In this document: positions 7,568 to 21,465 of the stretch, piece by piece | Layout: each line of letters starts with the position of its first letter | Numbering within the stretch: the stretch's first letter is position 1 | Assembly: GCA_003017855.1 (NCBI GenBank) | Contig: PYER01000003.1 | Span: forward strand, 1 to 64,000 | Source: a filamentous cyanobacterium CCT1 | GTDB taxonomy: Bacteria > Cyanobacteriota > Cyanobacteriia > Phormidesmidales > Phormidesmidaceae | Direction of reading: 5' to 3' | DNA length: 64,000 nucleotides | Position numbers and translations under genes: made by a program | The notes under the pieces: generated by a model | Told to the model about the DNA's origin: nothing | Seen by the model: the letters and a program-made list of their open reading frames with translations, nothing else | The model's database searches: none

Positions 7568-8399
7568 TTAGTTTTTGCTCCGAATGGTGCCCCTATCCCA
7601 AATCAACTGCCTGGGCCCAGTCATAAGAGCAGAGAACTGTAATCAAAAGAATGGCTGCTAAGCAAATTCTGTTGGCCAGCTCAGACCGGATGGCTGGCGA
7701 AGCTACATCCTAGCAGATAAGTTTGGTAAATAGGTTCAACGGCAGGTAATTCAGCTTGGGGACATAACGTAGGCCACAGACGACAGGCCTGATACCAAAT
7801 CCAAATTGCCTCACCCCAATTCCAAATAGACGGCTTGCGTAGGGGTAAACGGTGTTCGCTCAGCCCAAACTGTGGGTAGCCAAGGCGGATTCGGTATGAG
7901 AGGGGTAATGACAGTACCACGACCGCCCTATCAGGTAAGGGCGTTTTGACGAGAAACCCTCGACCGCTACGAGCTAGCCAGCTGACCCAGGTTTGTGATC
8001 ACCCAGTTCTAGCAATTGATAACTGACTCATGCTTGAAGGGCTCGGGTCAGGGCTGTAACTTCGATCGGGACCAAACCTTCTGTCACCTTTATTCCCTGC
8101 CTGTGCAAAGCTCCGATAAGGCCAAAAAAGGTCGTCAAAAACAGTATTGGAGCGAATTCGACCTTCACTCAGCATTCTAGGCTATATCTGACGATTTAGT
8201 ACCTGCTGCTAACTTTAAAGCCTCTGCAAATTCCCCTAGTCAAATCTCCGCTTTTCGGTATTGTGAATACGCTGGGGATAGGTGTGCCTTGATGCCTGGG
8301 AATTCGCCTTTAGCCGTTTCCCCACCGGGTATTCAACGTCTTAACCACTGCCTGAGTCGTCACCGCAGCTGTATGTTGAACCCCTATCCAGTAACCCAT

Positions 8400-8666
8400 A
8401 TGCCTAAAACCTTCTTATACACCAGCACTCCGTCTGAAGATGAAGCAACGCCCTCAACCGGCGATGGTTCTAAAGGGCCAGTCTTTGACCAGCGCGACAA
8501 AGTTCGCATTCTTGTCATTGGCCGCCCGACGGCGGTAAACCGAGTGATTTTAGAGATGAGCCACGTGGGTTTCTCCGACTCAATTGAGTGGAGCAAACCC
8601 ATTCCCACCGATCGCCAGCAGGAGTCAATGCGGGTACTTACTCGCGTCGTGTTTAGTGATTCGTAA
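8400..8666 (+). CDS. conserved cyanobacterial small protein (C-terminal ILVIGxxxAV...VGFxxxxEWS domain)
   Basis: Shares a domain pattern with the C-terminus of the 15114-15674 product; internal ATG at 8400 preferred over 8289. Confidence 0.6.
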   Translation: MPKTFLYTSTPSEDEATPSTGDGSKGPVFDQRDKVRILVIGRPTAVNRVILEMSHVGFSDSIEWSKPIPTDRQQESMRVLTRVVFSDS

Positions 8667-11719: not shown

Positions 11720-12508
11720 ATGACGCTATCTGCGTGTTCAAGCTGCAAAAATGCTGTCGACAGCATTTGCCTGTTGGGGCAGAGCTACATCGACGTCTAT
11801 CTAACCGTCCAAAATATTACCAATGAACAAGATCGAGAAAAAGTTACCCATCAGCTGGCCAATTGCTCATTTTGGGAAGAGTCTGAACTGTTTAAGCAAA
11901 TCTGCCGCGAGGTTACACTCAGCCAGCACGCTTGGAGCCGAATTGCTTACATCAAGCTCCAGTCATCTGACCAAGAAATGTTTGCTGGGTTAATCGACGT
12001 AGCACGCGATGTGGTGCATAACCCCATCAGTAACACCGGACAGCCTGGTCTGGCGGAGCCTCAACCCGCGCTCGATCTAGAGCCTCTGCCCTCAGCGGCT
12101 CCTGAAATCGAATCCAGTTCTGTAGCCCCCGCAGAGCCCGTTGCAGATCAAACGGAAGCGGACACAACGACGCTGCCCGGCAACAGCCCAACGGAAAGTG
12201 AGCCTGAAGCGACTGCCCTTGAGAACCCGATCGATCAAGATCTAAGCCAGACTGTCGCCAGCCAGGATGACCAAGTTCCAAGCCAGACTATTGCTAGCCA
12301 GGATGACCAAGATCCTGTAGAACAGGCTATGCAAGAACTCTTGAGCAATGCGATCACGTCATCGACCCAGGTGTCGTTGGCAGAGGCTCAGGCTCTGCAA
12401 TGGGGCCGGGGTTCAGGTCGAGTGACTAACGCTGCTAATGTCTCTGCCAACACCAATCTAGAACTCGAACGCAACTCCCAGTTTGAGTCTCTTCCTAGTA
12501 TTGCCTAG
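11720..12508 (+). CDS. hypothetical protein with N-terminal Cys cluster and acidic repeat tail
   Basis: ATG with AGGA-type RBS; CSSCKNAVDSIC; tandem SQTVASQDDQVP/SQTIASQDDQDP. Confidence 0.6.
   Translation: MTLSACSSCKNAVDSICLLGQSYIDVYLTVQNITNEQDREKVTHQLANCSFWEESELFKQICREVTLSQHAWSRIAYIKLQSSDQEMFAGLIDVARDVVHNPISNTGQPGLAEPQPALDLEPLPSAAPEIESSSVAPAEPVADQTEADTTTLPGNSPTESEPEATALENPIDQDLSQTVASQDDQVPSQTIASQDDQDPVEQAMQELLSNAITSSTQVSLAEAQALQWGRGSGRVTNAANVSANTNLELERNSQFESLPSIA
12245..12316 (+). repeat. two tandem 36-nt units inside CDS
   Basis: agccagactgtcgccagccaggatgaccaagttcca / agccagactattgctagccaggatgaccaagatcct. Confidence 0.85.
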
Positions 12509-12860: not shown

Positions 12861-12905
12861 CAACCCCTAGGCATAAGGGGTCTTACCCCTTATGCCTAGG
12901 GGTTG
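12861..12905. repeat. perfect 21-bp inverted repeat, 3-nt loop
   Basis: caacccctaggcataaggggt-ctt-accccttatgcctaggggttg. Confidence 0.95.
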
Positions 12906-13204: not shown

Positions 13205-14227
13205 ATGAACCTCAGACAAGACATTCAGAGAGTCGATATTGAGACCTACTTCAGCGATGTTGACGATCACGTTAAGGATAGTGATCAAGCCGTTATTATC
13301 CCTCCTGCCAATCTAGTCTCGACATCGGTAAAGCAACAGCTTATTACTACACCTGCCACCTCTGGTTCAGTGCTAAAACCCTACCAAAACGAGCGATCGC
13401 TACTTTTCAAACATCGCGACTTTAGTGTATTTGAACTGGAAGCAGCTCATGGTGCCGTTCGCGAACTGAGAGACAAACTACAGGAAAATACCTCGCCAAA
13501 AGTTAAGCCCCTGCCCCTTCCAAAGGTTGAAATTTCTGAACCACCTAAACCAAACTGGATCAGGCCTGCTGCAGGTCTCTTGGTTATCCTAATGGCGACT
13601 GCTATTACCTCTAAGGCTTCATGGCCCTACATAAGTGCCTGCTTAGCCCAGCAATGCTATTACTCCACTCAGGAGCGATTTATAGAGATAGCTAAATCGT
13701 TAAGCCAAGTCGCTAGCGATCGCCTCTCAAACAATTCACAAGCAGACGACAGCGCTTTAGATCAACAGCATTTCAGCACAGGGCTAAGGTATGCTCAAGC
13801 AGCATCGGACCTGACCCAGCAGGCTCAAACCAGTACCGACTGGCAACAGGTTGTTCAGTTATGGCAGTTGGCCCTCAACAGCATTGGCCATATCTCTTCG
13901 GAAAGTACTTTGTATTCTGAGGCCCAGGCCAAAGAAGTTATATATCGAACTAACCTCGCCTACTCTCGCCGAGAACTGGATATGGCTCCTTTTCGAGGTG
14001 GAGTTAAAGCAGCAGAAGAAGCGTCACGGCTAGCGATCGAAGCTAATTCTAAAGAAGATTGGCAAACCGTGGCAGACAAGTGGCAAGCAGCCCTAACTAA
14101 AATGCAGGCGGTCTCTAGCAACAATCAACATTACTCAATCGCCCAGGCCAAGCTTGTAGAGTACTCCACCAAATTTGCCTATGCCCAAAAGCGTTACTTG
14201 GATAGCCAAGCTACTTATCGTCCATAG
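13205..14227 (+). CDS. single-pass membrane protein with two about 65-aa tandem helical repeats
   Basis: TM near PAAGLLVILMATAITSKASW; repeats GLRYAQAASDLTQQAQTSTDWQQVVQLWQLALNSI... and GVKAAEEASRLAIEANSKEDWQTVADKWQAALTKM... Confidence 0.65.
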   Translation: MNLRQDIQRVDIETYFSDVDDHVKDSDQAVIIPPANLVSTSVKQQLITTPATSGSVLKPYQNERSLLFKHRDFSVFELEAAHGAVRELRDKLQENTSPKVKPLPLPKVEISEPPKPNWIRPAAGLLVILMATAITSKASWPYISACLAQQCYYSTQERFIEIAKSLSQVASDRLSNNSQADDSALDQQHFSTGLRYAQAASDLTQQAQTSTDWQQVVQLWQLALNSIGHISSESTLYSEAQAKEVIYRTNLAYSRRELDMAPFRGGVKAAEEASRLAIEANSKEDWQTVADKWQAALTKMQAVSSNNQHYSIAQAKLVEYSTKFAYAQKRYLDSQATYRP

Positions 14228-14291: not shown

Positions 14292-14927
14292 TTAAGGGCG
14301 ATAGCTAAACGCAAAGCACTCAGGCGGCGATTTTGGACCAGTCAGCGTTAAAAGAGTGTAGTCAGCGCTGGAATAATCTGGGTCTTTGTAGTACAAAACA
14401 ACTGCCGAAAGCTCAGGATCATTGCGATCAATGGCTTCTAGGCAGCTGCGATCGGCAAGATTTTGCCTTTCGATAAAGGCTAGTTTGGGGCCACTATCTA
14501 AGTCAGTAAACACGACCGCCCCATCACCATATGCCATATATCCTTGCCAAGCCAAAGCCAAAATAGCTTGGTAGTGCTGAGTCAAACGCTGTAGAGCTAC
14601 TTTTGAAACGTTTTGCAAATCCGGTTGGGAATGCTGAACAACTACAGAGTTGGGCAATGCCGCTTCACCAGCAGGCGAAACAACATCCTGACTTAAGACC
14701 GTGCCCGGTAGCGGCAACTCCTCAGGAACCCACACCAGAAGTTCTCCAGGCTGACATTGCAGTGCAGCACAGATCCCCTCCAAACGCTGAGGAGTCAGTC
14801 GCGGCATGTCATCGGCCTTACGCAATCGATAAACCGAATTCTCCGTGATATCCAGATACTCAGCGAGATCCTTATTGCGCATGCGCTTTCTCGCCATCAC
14901 CTCATGTAGCTTCCAGCGAATCGGCAT
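14292..14927 (-). CDS. XRE/Cro-CI-like helix-turn-helix transcriptional regulator with C-terminal unknown domain
   Basis: RWKLHEVMARKRMRNKDLAEYLDITENSVYRLRKADDMPRLTPQRLEGICAALQCQPGELLVW. Confidence 0.85.
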   Translation of the reverse strand: MPIRWKLHEVMARKRMRNKDLAEYLDITENSVYRLRKADDMPRLTPQRLEGICAALQCQPGELLVWVPEELPLPGTVLSQDVVSPAGEAALPNSVVVQHSQPDLQNVSKVALQRLTQHYQAILALAWQGYMAYGDGAVVFTDLDSGPKLAFIERQNLADRSCLEAIDRNDPELSAVVLYYKDPDYSSADYTLLTLTGPKSPPECFAFSYRP

Positions 14928-15014: not shown

Positions 15015-15043
15015 TTGACATTGATCTACGCTTCAAGTAGATT
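15015..15043 (+). promoter_or_regulatory. putative sigma70-type promoter for the 15114-20505 cluster
   Basis: TTGACA (15015-15020), 17-nt spacer, TAGATT (15038-15043). Confidence 0.6.
15024..15042. promoter_or_regulatory. putative operator dyad 2 (ATCTAC-N7-GTAGAT), overlapping the promoter
   Basis: atctac gcttcaa gtagat, same half-sites and spacer length as dyad 1; centres 44 bp apart. Confidence 0.65.
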
Positions 15044-15113: not shown

Positions 15114-15674
15114 ATGAGAAACAAAAACGCCGCCTTGGATGACCACTCGTGCTGCAGCAGCCCGTCTAAGAGCGCTGAGTCCTTACCCAATTCCGGCAGC
15201 CTAGCGCCAGGTATGCGGTTTTTCAGGAATGGGCACTGGTGGGAAGTAGATGGCTACATCAAAGGACGCGCCAGTAGCTACTACAAATGCAAGCCAGCAT
15301 GCTTTGTAGAAAGCCGATTTTATACAGAATCTGAAATTAAGCAAGCACTAGAAAAGGAAACCCAAATCATGAACCAAAAACTCCAAGAGTACGGCAGCAG
15401 AGGAACTGGTCGCCTACTCGCTGAACCCAGCGACAACACAACTCTTGTTGCTGGCAATTTTTCTGAACAGCGAACCACCAGCATCGCAAAAGTCAAGCCC
15501 TACTTAGAAAAAAAAGAGCCACTCAAGGTATTACTGGTCGGTTCGCGACAGGCCGTAAAAAAAACCATTCAAGCTCTACATCTTTTAGGCTTTGCCAATT
15601 TAAATGACTGGAGCGCTTTCCAAAACCGTTCTAACGGCGAAGAAGTTCTGAGCATTCTGGTACAAAAAGTCTAA
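15114..15674 (+). CDS. hypothetical cyanobacterial protein; C-terminal domain shared with 8400-8666 product
   Basis: LKVLLVGSRQAVKKTIQALHLLGFANLNDWSAFQN...EVLSILVQKV. Confidence 0.65.
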   Translation: MRNKNAALDDHSCCSSPSKSAESLPNSGSLAPGMRFFRNGHWWEVDGYIKGRASSYYKCKPACFVESRFYTESEIKQALEKETQIMNQKLQEYGSRGTGRLLAEPSDNTTLVAGNFSEQRTTSIAKVKPYLEKKEPLKVLLVGSRQAVKKTIQALHLLGFANLNDWSAFQNRSNGEEVLSILVQKV

Positions 15675-15703: not shown

Positions 15704-16198
15704 ATGAAAAAAAATCCTGCTGAATCAACTTTTATTTTGCTCTCCAACTACAGCTTTGAGTTAACTGAAACTAATGTTAACGACATGGTATTTGGCTGGC
15801 TTAGCTTATATCCAGGCAAATGGGTGGTCGCAGCTATTGTTGAAGCCATATACCAGGGACGCTACAAAGTTGAATCAGTCAGCCGAATCCTTAGCTCATG
15901 GAACACAAAAGGTTACCCGGCACACCATTTTGACTATGACTTTGCTGACGTGGTTTGCAAGCAACTTGTCAACTTGGGCACCTACAGAGTAAGCAAATCA
16001 AATCGAGAGGCTATGAAAACTATGCAACACCAAGAACATACCGTTTCAGAGCAACTAAAAACTGAAGTAAACCATCAGCGAGAAGGGCAAAATTTAGCAG
16101 AAATGATTCCCAAAAAGCACTGCAAAACGGGCTTTAAGAATACGCCCAATCAAAAAATAGGCGAGTGTGAAAGGTTAGTTGTTCACATCACTGCTTAA
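15704..16198 (+). CDS. hypothetical protein
   Basis: Ordered ORF with IVEAIYQGRYKVESVSRILSSWNTKG segment of a type I recognise from cyanobacterial hypothetical proteins; 29 nt after previous gene. Confidence 0.6.
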   Translation: MKKNPAESTFILLSNYSFELTETNVNDMVFGWLSLYPGKWVVAAIVEAIYQGRYKVESVSRILSSWNTKGYPAHHFDYDFADVVCKQLVNLGTYRVSKSNREAMKTMQHQEHTVSEQLKTEVNHQREGQNLAEMIPKKHCKTGFKNTPNQKIGECERLVVHITA

Positions 16199-16230: not shown

Positions 16231-16593
16231 ATGCATTCATATTATCCCAAGAGCTATGACTACTACACTGACGAACGTAACGCCTTTCTATCAACGCCCT
16301 CACAAGAGAACTATGGAAGCACGCTTACTGCTGAAATAATAATCCTGGAGCCAGCTTCGTTTACAGAAATCTCAGAAGCCATTCATGCCTTGAGAAGTAA
16401 CCAAATGGTTGTCTTGAACCTGATGAAAATTGATTTTGAAGAAGCCCAGCGCTGTGTAGACTTTTTAGCAGGAAGTATTCTCATGATTAATGGAACTGTT
16501 GAGAAGATAGATGAAAAAATATTCATTTTTGCTCCCTATAGTGCAGAGATTATCGCTGAGCACCAGCAGAATGAAGATCGAGGTAGCCAATGA
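16231..16593 (+). CDS. SepF-like (YlmF/Cdv2) short paralogue
   Basis: EIIILEPASFTEISEAIHALRSNQMVVLNLMKIDFEEAQRCVDFLAGSILMINGTVEKIDEKIFIFAP matches the SepF core pattern (EP.SF.E...I..LR....VVLNL...D...AQR.VDF.AG....I.G....I...IF.F.P). Confidence 0.85.
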   Translation: MHSYYPKSYDYYTDERNAFLSTPSQENYGSTLTAEIIILEPASFTEISEAIHALRSNQMVVLNLMKIDFEEAQRCVDFLAGSILMINGTVEKIDEKIFIFAPYSAEIIAEHQQNEDRGSQ

Positions 16594-18859: not shown

Positions 18860-18870
18860 GAGGATCCGCC

Positions 18871-19605
18871 ATGAATATTGAAAATTTAGTTCAACTCTCG
18901 TTCGAACAGTTGGATGAAATTCATCGACGAATTAGTACTGCGATTCATGAAAAAAGAATAATGAGGGTTGGTAATTCTGCAAGTGACATTTTAGATTTAA
19001 TGGCGACGAACTACTCTGACGTAGATCTGTGGGATGTACTCAATGAACTTGCATTTCGTAGTCAACTAAAGGTTGATCTAAAGAGCAGTTCAATTAGCTA
19101 TAAGCCAGTGCTGAATGAAACACCCAACTTAAAAGAGGACCAGAGGCCTGAATTATCGTTTCAAAACATTCAAATTCTATCAGAGCGATTGAAAACGATC
19201 CGAAATTCTGTTTTGCAGCATGATGACTCTCGCTTGTTATGGTTAACCAGCGGAGCTACCCAAAAAACATCAAAAATGTTTGGCAAAGATTTGGCAGAAG
19301 TTTTACAGGAAGCAACCAAAAGATTGGATAGACTACACGACGTAAGTGACGAAGACGAGCAGATAAAGGATTTAAGTTCTGAGGTCATCAAAATAGATGA
19401 GTGGGCAGAATTTAAACTTGGCATCTCTTTATTGTATGGAACTTTAACGGTCATTAATCCATTTTCTTCTAGAGACAATCAAACCAAAGACAATCCTCGT
19501 ACATCGCAACGGCTTCCCACGTCTGAAAACAGCAGAAATAAAGCTAGTTTAGAGCTTAGCTTTTACTCAAATCAGCGCAAAGGCGCTAGCGGCTACGTTC
19601 AGTAA
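18871..19605 (+). CDS. hypothetical protein, translationally coupled to the NACHT gene
   Basis: ATG 11 nt after NACHT stop with taggagga RBS; helical acidic protein. Confidence 0.65.
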   Translation: MNIENLVQLSFEQLDEIHRRISTAIHEKRIMRVGNSASDILDLMATNYSDVDLWDVLNELAFRSQLKVDLKSSSISYKPVLNETPNLKEDQRPELSFQNIQILSERLKTIRNSVLQHDDSRLLWLTSGATQKTSKMFGKDLAEVLQEATKRLDRLHDVSDEDEQIKDLSSEVIKIDEWAEFKLGISLLYGTLTVINPFSSRDNQTKDNPRTSQRLPTSENSRNKASLELSFYSNQRKGASGYVQ

Positions 19606-19650
19606 TAGTTCTCAGCCTGTATCAACACATCTAAAATGGGAGAAAACCGA

Positions 19651-20505
19651 ATGGGCGCTGACGGATCTGACCACCTATCATACTTAAAGCGGTACCCAAT
19701 GCTAAAGCATGAAGAGGAAGTTGAGCTTGGGCAAAAAGTTCGAAGGATGATGGATCACTGTGAACCCGTTCCTTCCAAAATTATCAAAGAGGGAATTGCT
19801 GCCAAGCGCCGCATGATAGAAGGAAACTTGAGACTCGTAGTTTATATCGCCAAAAAGTACCTTGGGCGAGGCTTAGATTTAGATGATTTGGTGTCAGAGG
19901 GAATTATTGGACTGAATCGGGCGGTAGAAAAATTTGAGCCGACTAGAGGTTACCGCTTTAGTACCTATAGCTGCTGGTGGATTCGTCAATCAATTACTCG
20001 AGCATTAGCAAATCAGGGGCAAAGTATTCGCATTCCTATGCACATAGTTGAGAAGTTGAATAGGGTGAAAAAATGGCAACACTTATTTCAACTCAAAAAT
20101 AACCAGTTTCCTAACCAGGGCGAGTTAGAGGTTTTTTTGAAGAATGAGCTGGGCTTGAACTTTGCTGATTTTCAAAGATTGGTTTTGATTACACAACGCA
20201 ACCCTAGCTTAGATGCTTCTTTAAACAATGATGATTTAGACTTTAATTTGGGTAATTCTCTGCGCGATGAATGCTATGAACGAGCAGTTGAGTCTTTAGA
20301 AAGTAGCTATGAGTTGGATGATATTTTGGGGCAGGCTAATCTGACTGAGCGAGAGCTTAAGGTACTAAAGTTACACTTCAACTATAATCAGAGCCTAAAC
20401 GATATTGGGCAACAACATTTAGGTGGAGTTACCCGGGAACGGGTAAGGCAGATTAAGGTGGCCGCGCTTCAGAAGTGCCGCCACGCGATCGCCCTAAGGG
20501 ACTGA
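19651..20505 (+). CDS. RNA polymerase sigma-70 factor (RpoD/group 2-like)
   Basis: Region 1.2 ([21 protein letters not shown]), region 2 ([62 protein letters not shown]), region 4 ([18 protein letters not shown]); start 19651 preferred over 19636 by RBS GGAGAA. Confidence 0.93.
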
Positions 20506-20538: not shown

Positions 20539-21465
20539 TCAAGCTGATATTTCTTGGTGTGGCCCAAGCAAAAACTGTAGAGCGACAATGTTAGACCCAT
20601 CTGACTCTGTGTGGTATTTGTCTGCCCACGTACGCAGCATTTCATCAAGCTCCTGCAGAGCTTCGTCTTTCCGATCTTCCTGAATTTCTAAGGTTTCTAT
20701 GCCTCGCATAACACCACTTTCACCATCAATCCATGAGTACATCCAACGAAATGAGCGAGTTAGATCTTGAACCATTGTTTGCATACGAGCTTGCCGCCCC
20801 TTGGGAGAATACTCTTTCTTAAGTAGCAGATAAGCAGAGATTTCCTTGGTGATTTTAATCTCTTGCATTGTTTCTGAAGCTAGCAAACGATATTTTGCAT
20901 GCTCAGCAAGTGCTTCGCTAAAATCGGTTCGTTTTGACTCGTGCAGTAACGATTGTGCTTTCTCATGCAAGTCTCTTATTAAATCCTCAACATCACATTC
21001 TCGCAGCACGAGGCAGCTAGGTATATTTTTCGGAAAACTAGCCTCTAAAATGAGTCTTTCGCTTTCGCTTAAATTGAAAAGCCGGGTCATTGGTTCCCCA
21101 TTCTTCAGTGAATATTTCTCAAGCCAAAGGTAAGAAAAGCCAATTAGGTATGAAGGCTCTACACTTCCTAATAAACAAAGTGAGCCTCCATTTTCCAAAA
21201 GGGAATCAAATTCACCAACAATTTCTTTGACCCTGCGAGGCTCTACATGATGTAGAAAACCCGTACGTCTTAAGTTGTTTCCCTCTTCCAAATAGGTTAG
21301 ATAAACTGCGAATTTTGCGGCGACCGACACAGCATCAATGACCTTTCCATACCGGTGTCCAAAAGTTTTGATTAAATTGATTACAAGTAAAAGAATAAAG
21401 AAATCAATGTCGCTAACGTTCAAAGCTTTGGCAAGCTTATCGTGATTAACCCTGATCTGCACCAT
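20539..21465 (-). CDS. hypothetical protein
   Basis: 308-aa ORF with coherent protein-like composition; no family recognised. Confidence 0.6.
   Translation of the reverse strand: MVQIRVNHDKLAKALNVSDIDFFILLLVINLIKTFGHRYGKVIDAVSVAAKFAVYLTYLEEGNNLRRTGFLHHVEPRRVKEIVGEFDSLLENGGSLCLLGSVEPSYLIGFSYLWLEKYSLKNGEPMTRLFNLSESERLILEASFPKNIPSCLVLRECDVEDLIRDLHEKAQSLLHESKRTDFSEALAEHAKYRLLASETMQEIKITKEISAYLLLKKEYSPKGRQARMQTMVQDLTRSFRWMYSWIDGESGVMRGIETLEIQEDRKDEALQELDEMLRTWADKYHTESDGSNIVALQFLLGPHQEISA

Follow-up and report, generated by a model that had tools for sequence, protein, structure and literature searches.

The HetR-PatS and HetR-PatX systems combine a HetR-fold regulator carrying ligand residues with a separate RG[ST]GR protein (PMC4649674, PMC12756182). 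When residues R223, E253, D270 and D278 of HetR are lost, PatS6 binding is abolished or much weakened (PMC4649674), and PatX acts only after export (PMC12756182). Unrestrained HetR gives rise to necridia-like dead cells (PMC7761841), and control of necridia by HetR and RG[ST]GR has been conjectured (PMC12756182, PMC7761841). The idea of a HetR-linked programme that acts on FtsZ and SepF comes from divisome-directed factors of Anabaena, namely PatA, PatD, HetF and PatU3 (PMC12288457, PMC7380572). PatA binds SepF in this organism (PMC7380572), and Anabaena SepF is essential and harmful on overexpression; it restrains FtsZ polymerisation and disappears or is switched off in cells that differentiate (PMC12288457). 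In Corynebacterium glutamicum SepF, mutation of K125 and F131 abolishes binding of the FtsZ C-terminal peptide (PMC7118173). Here we describe a locus in which a SepF paralogue, a HetR paralogue and RG[ST]GR proteins occur together with a NACHT-domain NTPase and an XRE-type regulator.

Results

A second SepF gene in the CCT1 genome

The window, by which we mean the whole 64,000-nucleotide stretch of contig PYER01000003.1 of filamentous cyanobacterium CCT1 that was analysed, contains a short gene with a PF04472 match, whose product aligns without gaps to C. glutamicum SepF:

16231-16593, plus strand: short SepF paralogue, 120 aa
16336-16551, plus strand: SepF core of the paralogue, residues 36-107
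16504-16506, plus strand: K92, FtsZ-pocket residue
16522-16524, plus strand: F98, FtsZ-pocket residue

The gene starts with ATG just downstream of AGGAGA, and since no in-frame ATG, GTG or TTG was found 5' of this ATG, the N-terminus is not mis-called. The product covers the whole PF04472 profile (positions 1-72; E 2.1e-21), scoring 76.4 bits against a curated cut-off of 27 bits, which bears out the clear SepF core that the first-pass annotation had recognised in this 120-aa protein, and it matches solved SepF chains with E 3e-11. The first-pass annotation had proposed looking for a housekeeping sepF and took a sole sepF as counting against its reading; a search of the 6.85 Mb genome (546 contigs), which judging by its named relatives is close to Nodosilinea, Leptolyngbya and Phormidium, detected two SepF genes, this copy and one on contig C25 encoding a housekeeping SepF of 199 aa (100 bits; N-terminus (V/M)SNMFSKLRDFVGL). 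Because the genome also has this housekeeping protein, the gene at 16231-16593 is a true paralogue, a real second SepF, whose core is 44% identical to that of its housekeeping counterpart. On contig C25 the housekeeping sepF is flanked by what we take, from our reading of the ORFs, to be a YggS-type gene and proC; the paralogue is not near yggS/proC and lies instead in an operon associated with HetR, NACHT and XRE genes.

Orthologues of the paralogue in two congeners show 78% and 61% identity, and dN/dS among module SepFs is ~0.2, indicative of purifying selection; this value comes from the measurable module pairs, as dS is saturated for pairs involving the window SepF. These two observations imply that the gene is maintained and, together with the Pfam match, rule out a chance ORF or a pseudogene. 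In a SepF tree 16 rows share one and the same housekeeping core, whereas the module SepFs diverge quickly.

Other accessory SepF-core proteins were encountered. Acaryochloris plasmids (L034-L037; three plasmids in one strain) encode several of 93-102 aa, in which the N-terminal linker is apparently absent; they occupy a separate long branch and have no module genes around them, which rules them out as near kin of the paralogue and marks a second, separate accessory class. SepF-core matches with 25-36% identity were also seen in unannotated gut/Firmicutes phage records (MT835478, OR846604, OR847588 and others) and may represent phage-borne SepF or host DNA.

Membrane helix and FtsZ pocket

Over its first 30 residues the window SepF has no amphipathic helix (its helical moment peaks at 0.29, compared with 0.56 in the housekeeping SepF), and it is thus a SepF-core protein that lacks the N-terminal amphipathic membrane-targeting helix of the housekeeping type. 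The earlier description of its N-terminus as short and non-amphipathic therefore holds for this protein, but does not extend to the family: a housekeeping-like hydrophobic or amphipathic start is kept in four module SepFs, those of CCP5 (MSKLLAKTLKYIA), T3Sed10 (MNRFVNKLLDFVGG), Halomicronema (MILGVLDALGWL) and G038 (MSGLLETIGL), and is absent from the window, Nodosilinea-type and Vasconcelosia members. From this distribution, the membrane helix looks to have been lost within the history of the module.

Compared with the housekeeping SepFs of PF04472 (B. subtilis YlmF, C. glutamicum, Anabaena), the paralogue has a complete core and keeps the glycine mutated in B. subtilis entry 3zii, whereas the window clade lacks both the N-terminal amphipathic helix and the long linker. 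In the ungapped alignment K92 and F98 occupy the positions of C. glutamicum K125 and F131, and since both tested FtsZ-binding residues are kept, an interaction of the paralogue with FtsZ or SepF is plausible. By analogy, a protein able to hold FtsZ and pair with SepF, yet not anchored in the membrane, would be expected to weaken the Z-ring or to redirect it.

A syntenic module surrounds the SepF paralogue

The paralogue is the third gene of an operon, 32 bp after o15704, in a cluster with the order o13205, XRE (reverse), o15114, o15704, sepF, NACHT, in some cases o18868 and a sigma factor gene, and a HetR paralogue (reverse). The features in the window are as follows:

11720-12508, plus strand: o11645, second protein with RGSGR (12407-12421, close to its C-terminus); N-terminus Cys-rich
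13205-14227, plus strand: o13205, conserved protein of 340 aa with a hydrophobic segment and a repeated C-terminal half
14292-14927, minus strand: XRE/Cro-type regulator (HTH_26; Pfam 67.7 bits) with a conserved C-terminal domain of ~120 aa
14981-14997: upstream operator, TCTACGGCTGAAGTAGA on the minus strand, 0 mismatches to TCTACGNCTNNNGTAGA
15015-15043, plus strand: promoter-like TTGACA-N17-TAGATT, a pattern conserved in the aligned loci
15025-15041: operator 2
15114-15674, plus strand: o15114, protein of 186 aa with the RG[ST]GR motif, here RGTGR, residues 96-100 (15399-15413)
15704-16198, plus strand: o15704, conserved all-helical protein, 164 aa
16715-18859, plus strand: NACHT-domain (STAND) NTPase, 714 aa (Pfam NACHT 38.1 bits)
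18868-19605, plus strand: o18868, 245 aa, function unassigned, 3' of NACHT
19636-20505, plus strand: sigma-70 family factor, RpoD/SigA-like, cyanobacterial (Pfam and NCBIfam)
20539-21465, minus strand: HetR paralogue, 308 aa, with a peptidase S48/DNA-binding part and a Hood domain (Pfam 167 and 67.7 bits)

This module is syntenic in 12 loci of filamentous cyanobacteria: the window, Filamentous cyanobacterium CCP3 (L038/L107), G027 (L039), Leptolyngbya DLM2.Bin15 (L040/L109), Phormidium FACHB-1136 (L041/L110), Nodosilinea BSH.14 (L042/L108), CCP5 (L043/L111), Vasconcelosia minhoensis (L044/L112), G016 (L045), T3Sed10 (L113), Halomicronema CCY15110 (L114/L180) and G038 (L181). SepF, XRE, o15114, o15704 and o13205 are each present in 12/12 loci, with o13205 always adjoining XRE. 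NACHT is found in 11/12, being missing in CCP5 only (G038 has it), and HetR adjoins the module in 10 of the 11 loci whose contigs reach far enough for a check (all but G038), T3Sed10 being the one locus with no HetR beside the module on its contig. SepF is therefore at least as constant a part of the module as either NACHT or HetR. Homologues of o18868 occur in six loci (L038-L042 and L045), and CCP5 has a 236-aa ORF in a similar position; a neighbouring sigma factor is confined to the window, G018, G027 and G031. In almost all genomes examined, a single gene away from the module encodes a function-unassigned protein that shares the N-terminal ~85 aa of o15704. This chromosomal homologue is stand-alone, with no obvious hetZ adjoining in the one locus examined, so an assignment of o15704 as PatU3 found no support, and its low-confidence AF2 model was too poor for use.

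G016 apparently corresponds to the genetically tractable Leptolyngbya BL0902, an identity that we infer, with the module at about 746-756 kb of the chromosome; its genome has three HetR genes, and three hetR-like ORFs have been described in BL0902 (PMC11298460). A search of freely readable papers found no description of the module, and we consider that the novelty rests in the module as a whole.

Paired operators and probable control by the XRE regulator

The XRE protein, 57-90% identical across loci, is likely a repressor. The divergent promoter between its gene and o15114 contains TCTACGNCTNNNGTAGA twice, at a spacing of 44 bp that is kept in most loci, and operator 2 overlaps the spacer and second hexamer of TTGACA-N17-TAGATT. 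Operators are present in every module promoter, and in each of the 9 loci tested 0/200 shuffles were as good, a result that speaks to conservation and not to independent discovery because the pattern was derived from the tested loci. In an independent set, the same site lies 5' of stand-alone Nostocales XRE genes that have a near-identical HTH and no module. This makes XRE the likely operator-binding protein and HetR a less likely one. A genome-wide operator search gave no excess over a control pattern beyond the module pair. The first-pass annotation had placed the SepF gene in an accessory, inducible cluster, and this agrees with an accessory operon that, judging by the paired operators at its promoter, is apparently repressible.

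The stand-alone Nostocales XRE proteins (L116-L129) are short (86 aa), are preceded by a TCTACG...CGTAGA operator and, in the two loci examined, adjoin genes for a transposition-like ATPase and a zinc-finger protein. In G027, the divergent promoter region (L039:11218-11394) contains a duplicated XRE N-terminus fragment of 59 aa that is 100% identical to that of the window.

The HetR paralogue and the RG[ST]GR proteins

Residues R227, E257, D274 and D282 of the HetR paralogue correspond to the ligand residues R223, E253, D270 and D278 of HetR. Their equivalents are kept in 9/10 module HetRs, the exception being D278N in L180. Two accessory Hood residues differ: E254 is replaced by T (by M in L180) and D256 by E, G, T or Q. 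The module HetRs form their own clade, apart from the two canonical HetR clades of the same genomes (support 97/93; long branches), and differ from HetR of the PatX and PatS systems in this distinct position and in being coupled to XRE, SepF and NACHT. In CCT1, a patX-like ORF in which RGSGR occurs three times is found near canonical hetR on contig C354 (L164). Genomes in which the module is present have three HetR types, and no patX-like ORF is evident beside the type on contig C13 (L163) of the same genome. In Vasconcelosia minhoensis (L044, G030), the module HetR is the only HetR found in a nominally complete genome.

In all 12 loci o15114 keeps RGTGR or RGSGR, even though the linker around the motif is not conserved. 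The AF2 model reaches pLDDT 80-93 for residues 35-93 and 136-185 and is low in the linker, so that the motif is predicted to mark the start of a disordered, exposed linker between two folded domains. In contrast to PatX, o15114 would thus be a two-domain protein, and inspection by eye showed no obvious signal peptide. A fold search returned only weak SH3/Tudor-like matches with E over 0.2. At its C-terminus o15114 has a stretch of ~60 aa (LKVLLVGSRQAVKKTIQALHLLGFAN..W) representing a domain that is widespread in cyanobacteria, where a genome has several copies; another copy lies at 8289-8666. The RGSGR of o11645 is kept in most loci, with homologues or fragments that carry it in L038-L041, L043, L045 (as RGTGR) and L180. 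Between o11645 and o13205, at 12861-12905 on the minus strand, a 20-bp hairpin is followed by a T-containing tail, resembling a terminator or a repeat element.

The module occupies a genomic island

The module segment is AT-rich, with 37-50% GC as against mostly 52-66% in its flanks. In the window ~11.9 kb separates the flanking malic-enzyme and ABC-permease genes, which are close together in module-free congeners, 510 bp apart in G007 and 0.6-2 kb in G014, G009, G004, G011, G008 and G019. The diverged copy in G016 also adjoins malic enzyme, so the site could be an old position with losses or one that is used repeatedly. No integrase, phage or plasmid association of the module was found. Module HetR and o15704 were not found in a plasmid collection, nor module HetR in viral contigs, where the only matches were to the XRE HTH, in two contigs; on these searches we reject a phage or plasmid origin.

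Discussion

The partners, namely the HetR paralogue, RG[ST]GR proteins, NACHT and XRE, are most telling as to the role of the SepF paralogue. We tentatively read it as the division-facing part of an XRE-controlled cell-fate or cell-death module with its own HetR-type regulator and RG[ST]GR ligand proteins, which we regard as quite possible though short of probable. The XRE protein would keep the operon off until a trigger sensed by its C-terminal domain or by NACHT leads to derepression, and HetR activity, limited by RG[ST]GR, would govern the response. The extra SepF may then bind the FtsZ tail and/or heterodimerise with housekeeping SepF without membrane tethering, and through this untethered binding Z-ring assembly in that cell would be blocked or remodelled while the programme lasts. 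Our best reading is accordingly of a brake on division, or a modifier of it, that acts when an XRE-repressed, HetR/RG[ST]GR-linked programme fires, where we infer both the interaction and its sign. Relative to PatA, PatD, HetF and PatU3, the difference is that the division-facing protein would itself be a SepF paralogue.

In favour of this reading we count the two SepF genes, the synteny in 12 loci, the separate HetR clade with its ligand residues, RG[ST]GR in all 12 loci, the operators and the FtsZ-pocket residues and, by analogy with published work, the dosage sensitivity of Anabaena SepF, its binding by PatA and HetR-linked dead cells. Against it, kept pocket residues are equally expected of a normal, division-promoting SepF; the helix in four module SepFs means that the design is not in general that of a helix-less poison; the absence of HetR in T3Sed10 and of NACHT in CCP5 means that neither partner is strictly required; and the HetR tree has long branches, E254 and D256 are changed, and o15114 shows by eye no obvious signal peptide, whereas PatX acts only once exported. 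The suggestion of the first-pass annotation, an accessory second SepF possibly acting on division, survives in outline, although its argument from the helix proved specific to one clade and it had missed the module partners.

A NACHT domain in an AT-rich island of patchy distribution, at a site otherwise empty in congeners, would also fit anti-phage defence, with NACHT sensing infection, the operon stopping division of the infected cell or killing it, SepF serving as effector or guarded decoy, and HetR/RG[ST]GR tuning expression or sparing neighbours in the filament. The module protein resembles bacterial NACHT/STAND defence genes in its P-loop NTPase and Orc/nSTAND-like similarity. However, no module protein has a substantial PADLOC match (only a 16.6-bit P-loop match to mad8), NACHT is embedded in a regulatory and division operon and dispensable in CCP5, where SepF is nevertheless kept, no integrase, phage or plasmid association was found, and the malic-enzyme neighbourhood is common to diverged copies; we consider it unlikely. 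That the paralogue is instead a normal SepF working positively with FtsZ in a specialised mode of division or septation, such as filament fragmentation or short-cell formation, would agree with its conserved core and FtsZ residues, with purifying selection and with the helix kept in several module members. The core nevertheless evolves fast beside the invariant housekeeping core, and the window clade has lost a helix that a sole membrane tether would have to keep, which makes this decidedly unlikely. The constant position of sepF between o15704 and NACHT, where NACHT is present, and the dispensable helix could suggest that the core is a dimer or polymer scaffold for another module purpose, for example clustering NACHT or the RG[ST]GR protein, without divisome contact; this seems highly improbable given that a pure scaffold has no need of the K92/F98 pocket and that CCP5 dispenses with NACHT.

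The preferred reading, of a division-facing SepF in an XRE-controlled programme, can be extended further. In an unlikely form of it, the module would be a self-contained, horizontally patchy cell-fate circuit of heterocyst-less filaments, in which HetR/RG[ST]GR lateral inhibition selects single cells, XRE opens the operon, NACHT brings about death as a necridium and the SepF paralogue stops division. If this were true, a single operon of a HetR pathway would encode both its executioner and its brake on division.

The role of HetR and RG[ST]GR in heterocyst-less cyanobacteria has been called a mystery (PMC11298460). Here, one unit joins a third HetR type, the ligand motif, a NACHT NTPase, a divisome protein and a recognisable operator. 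Since markerless deletion works in Leptolyngbya BL0902, an apparent carrier of the module, both the HetR question and the role of SepF paralogues as division effectors become directly testable. The module suggests that some heterocyst-less filamentous cyanobacteria have a hitherto undescribed switch linking cell fate or cell death to division.
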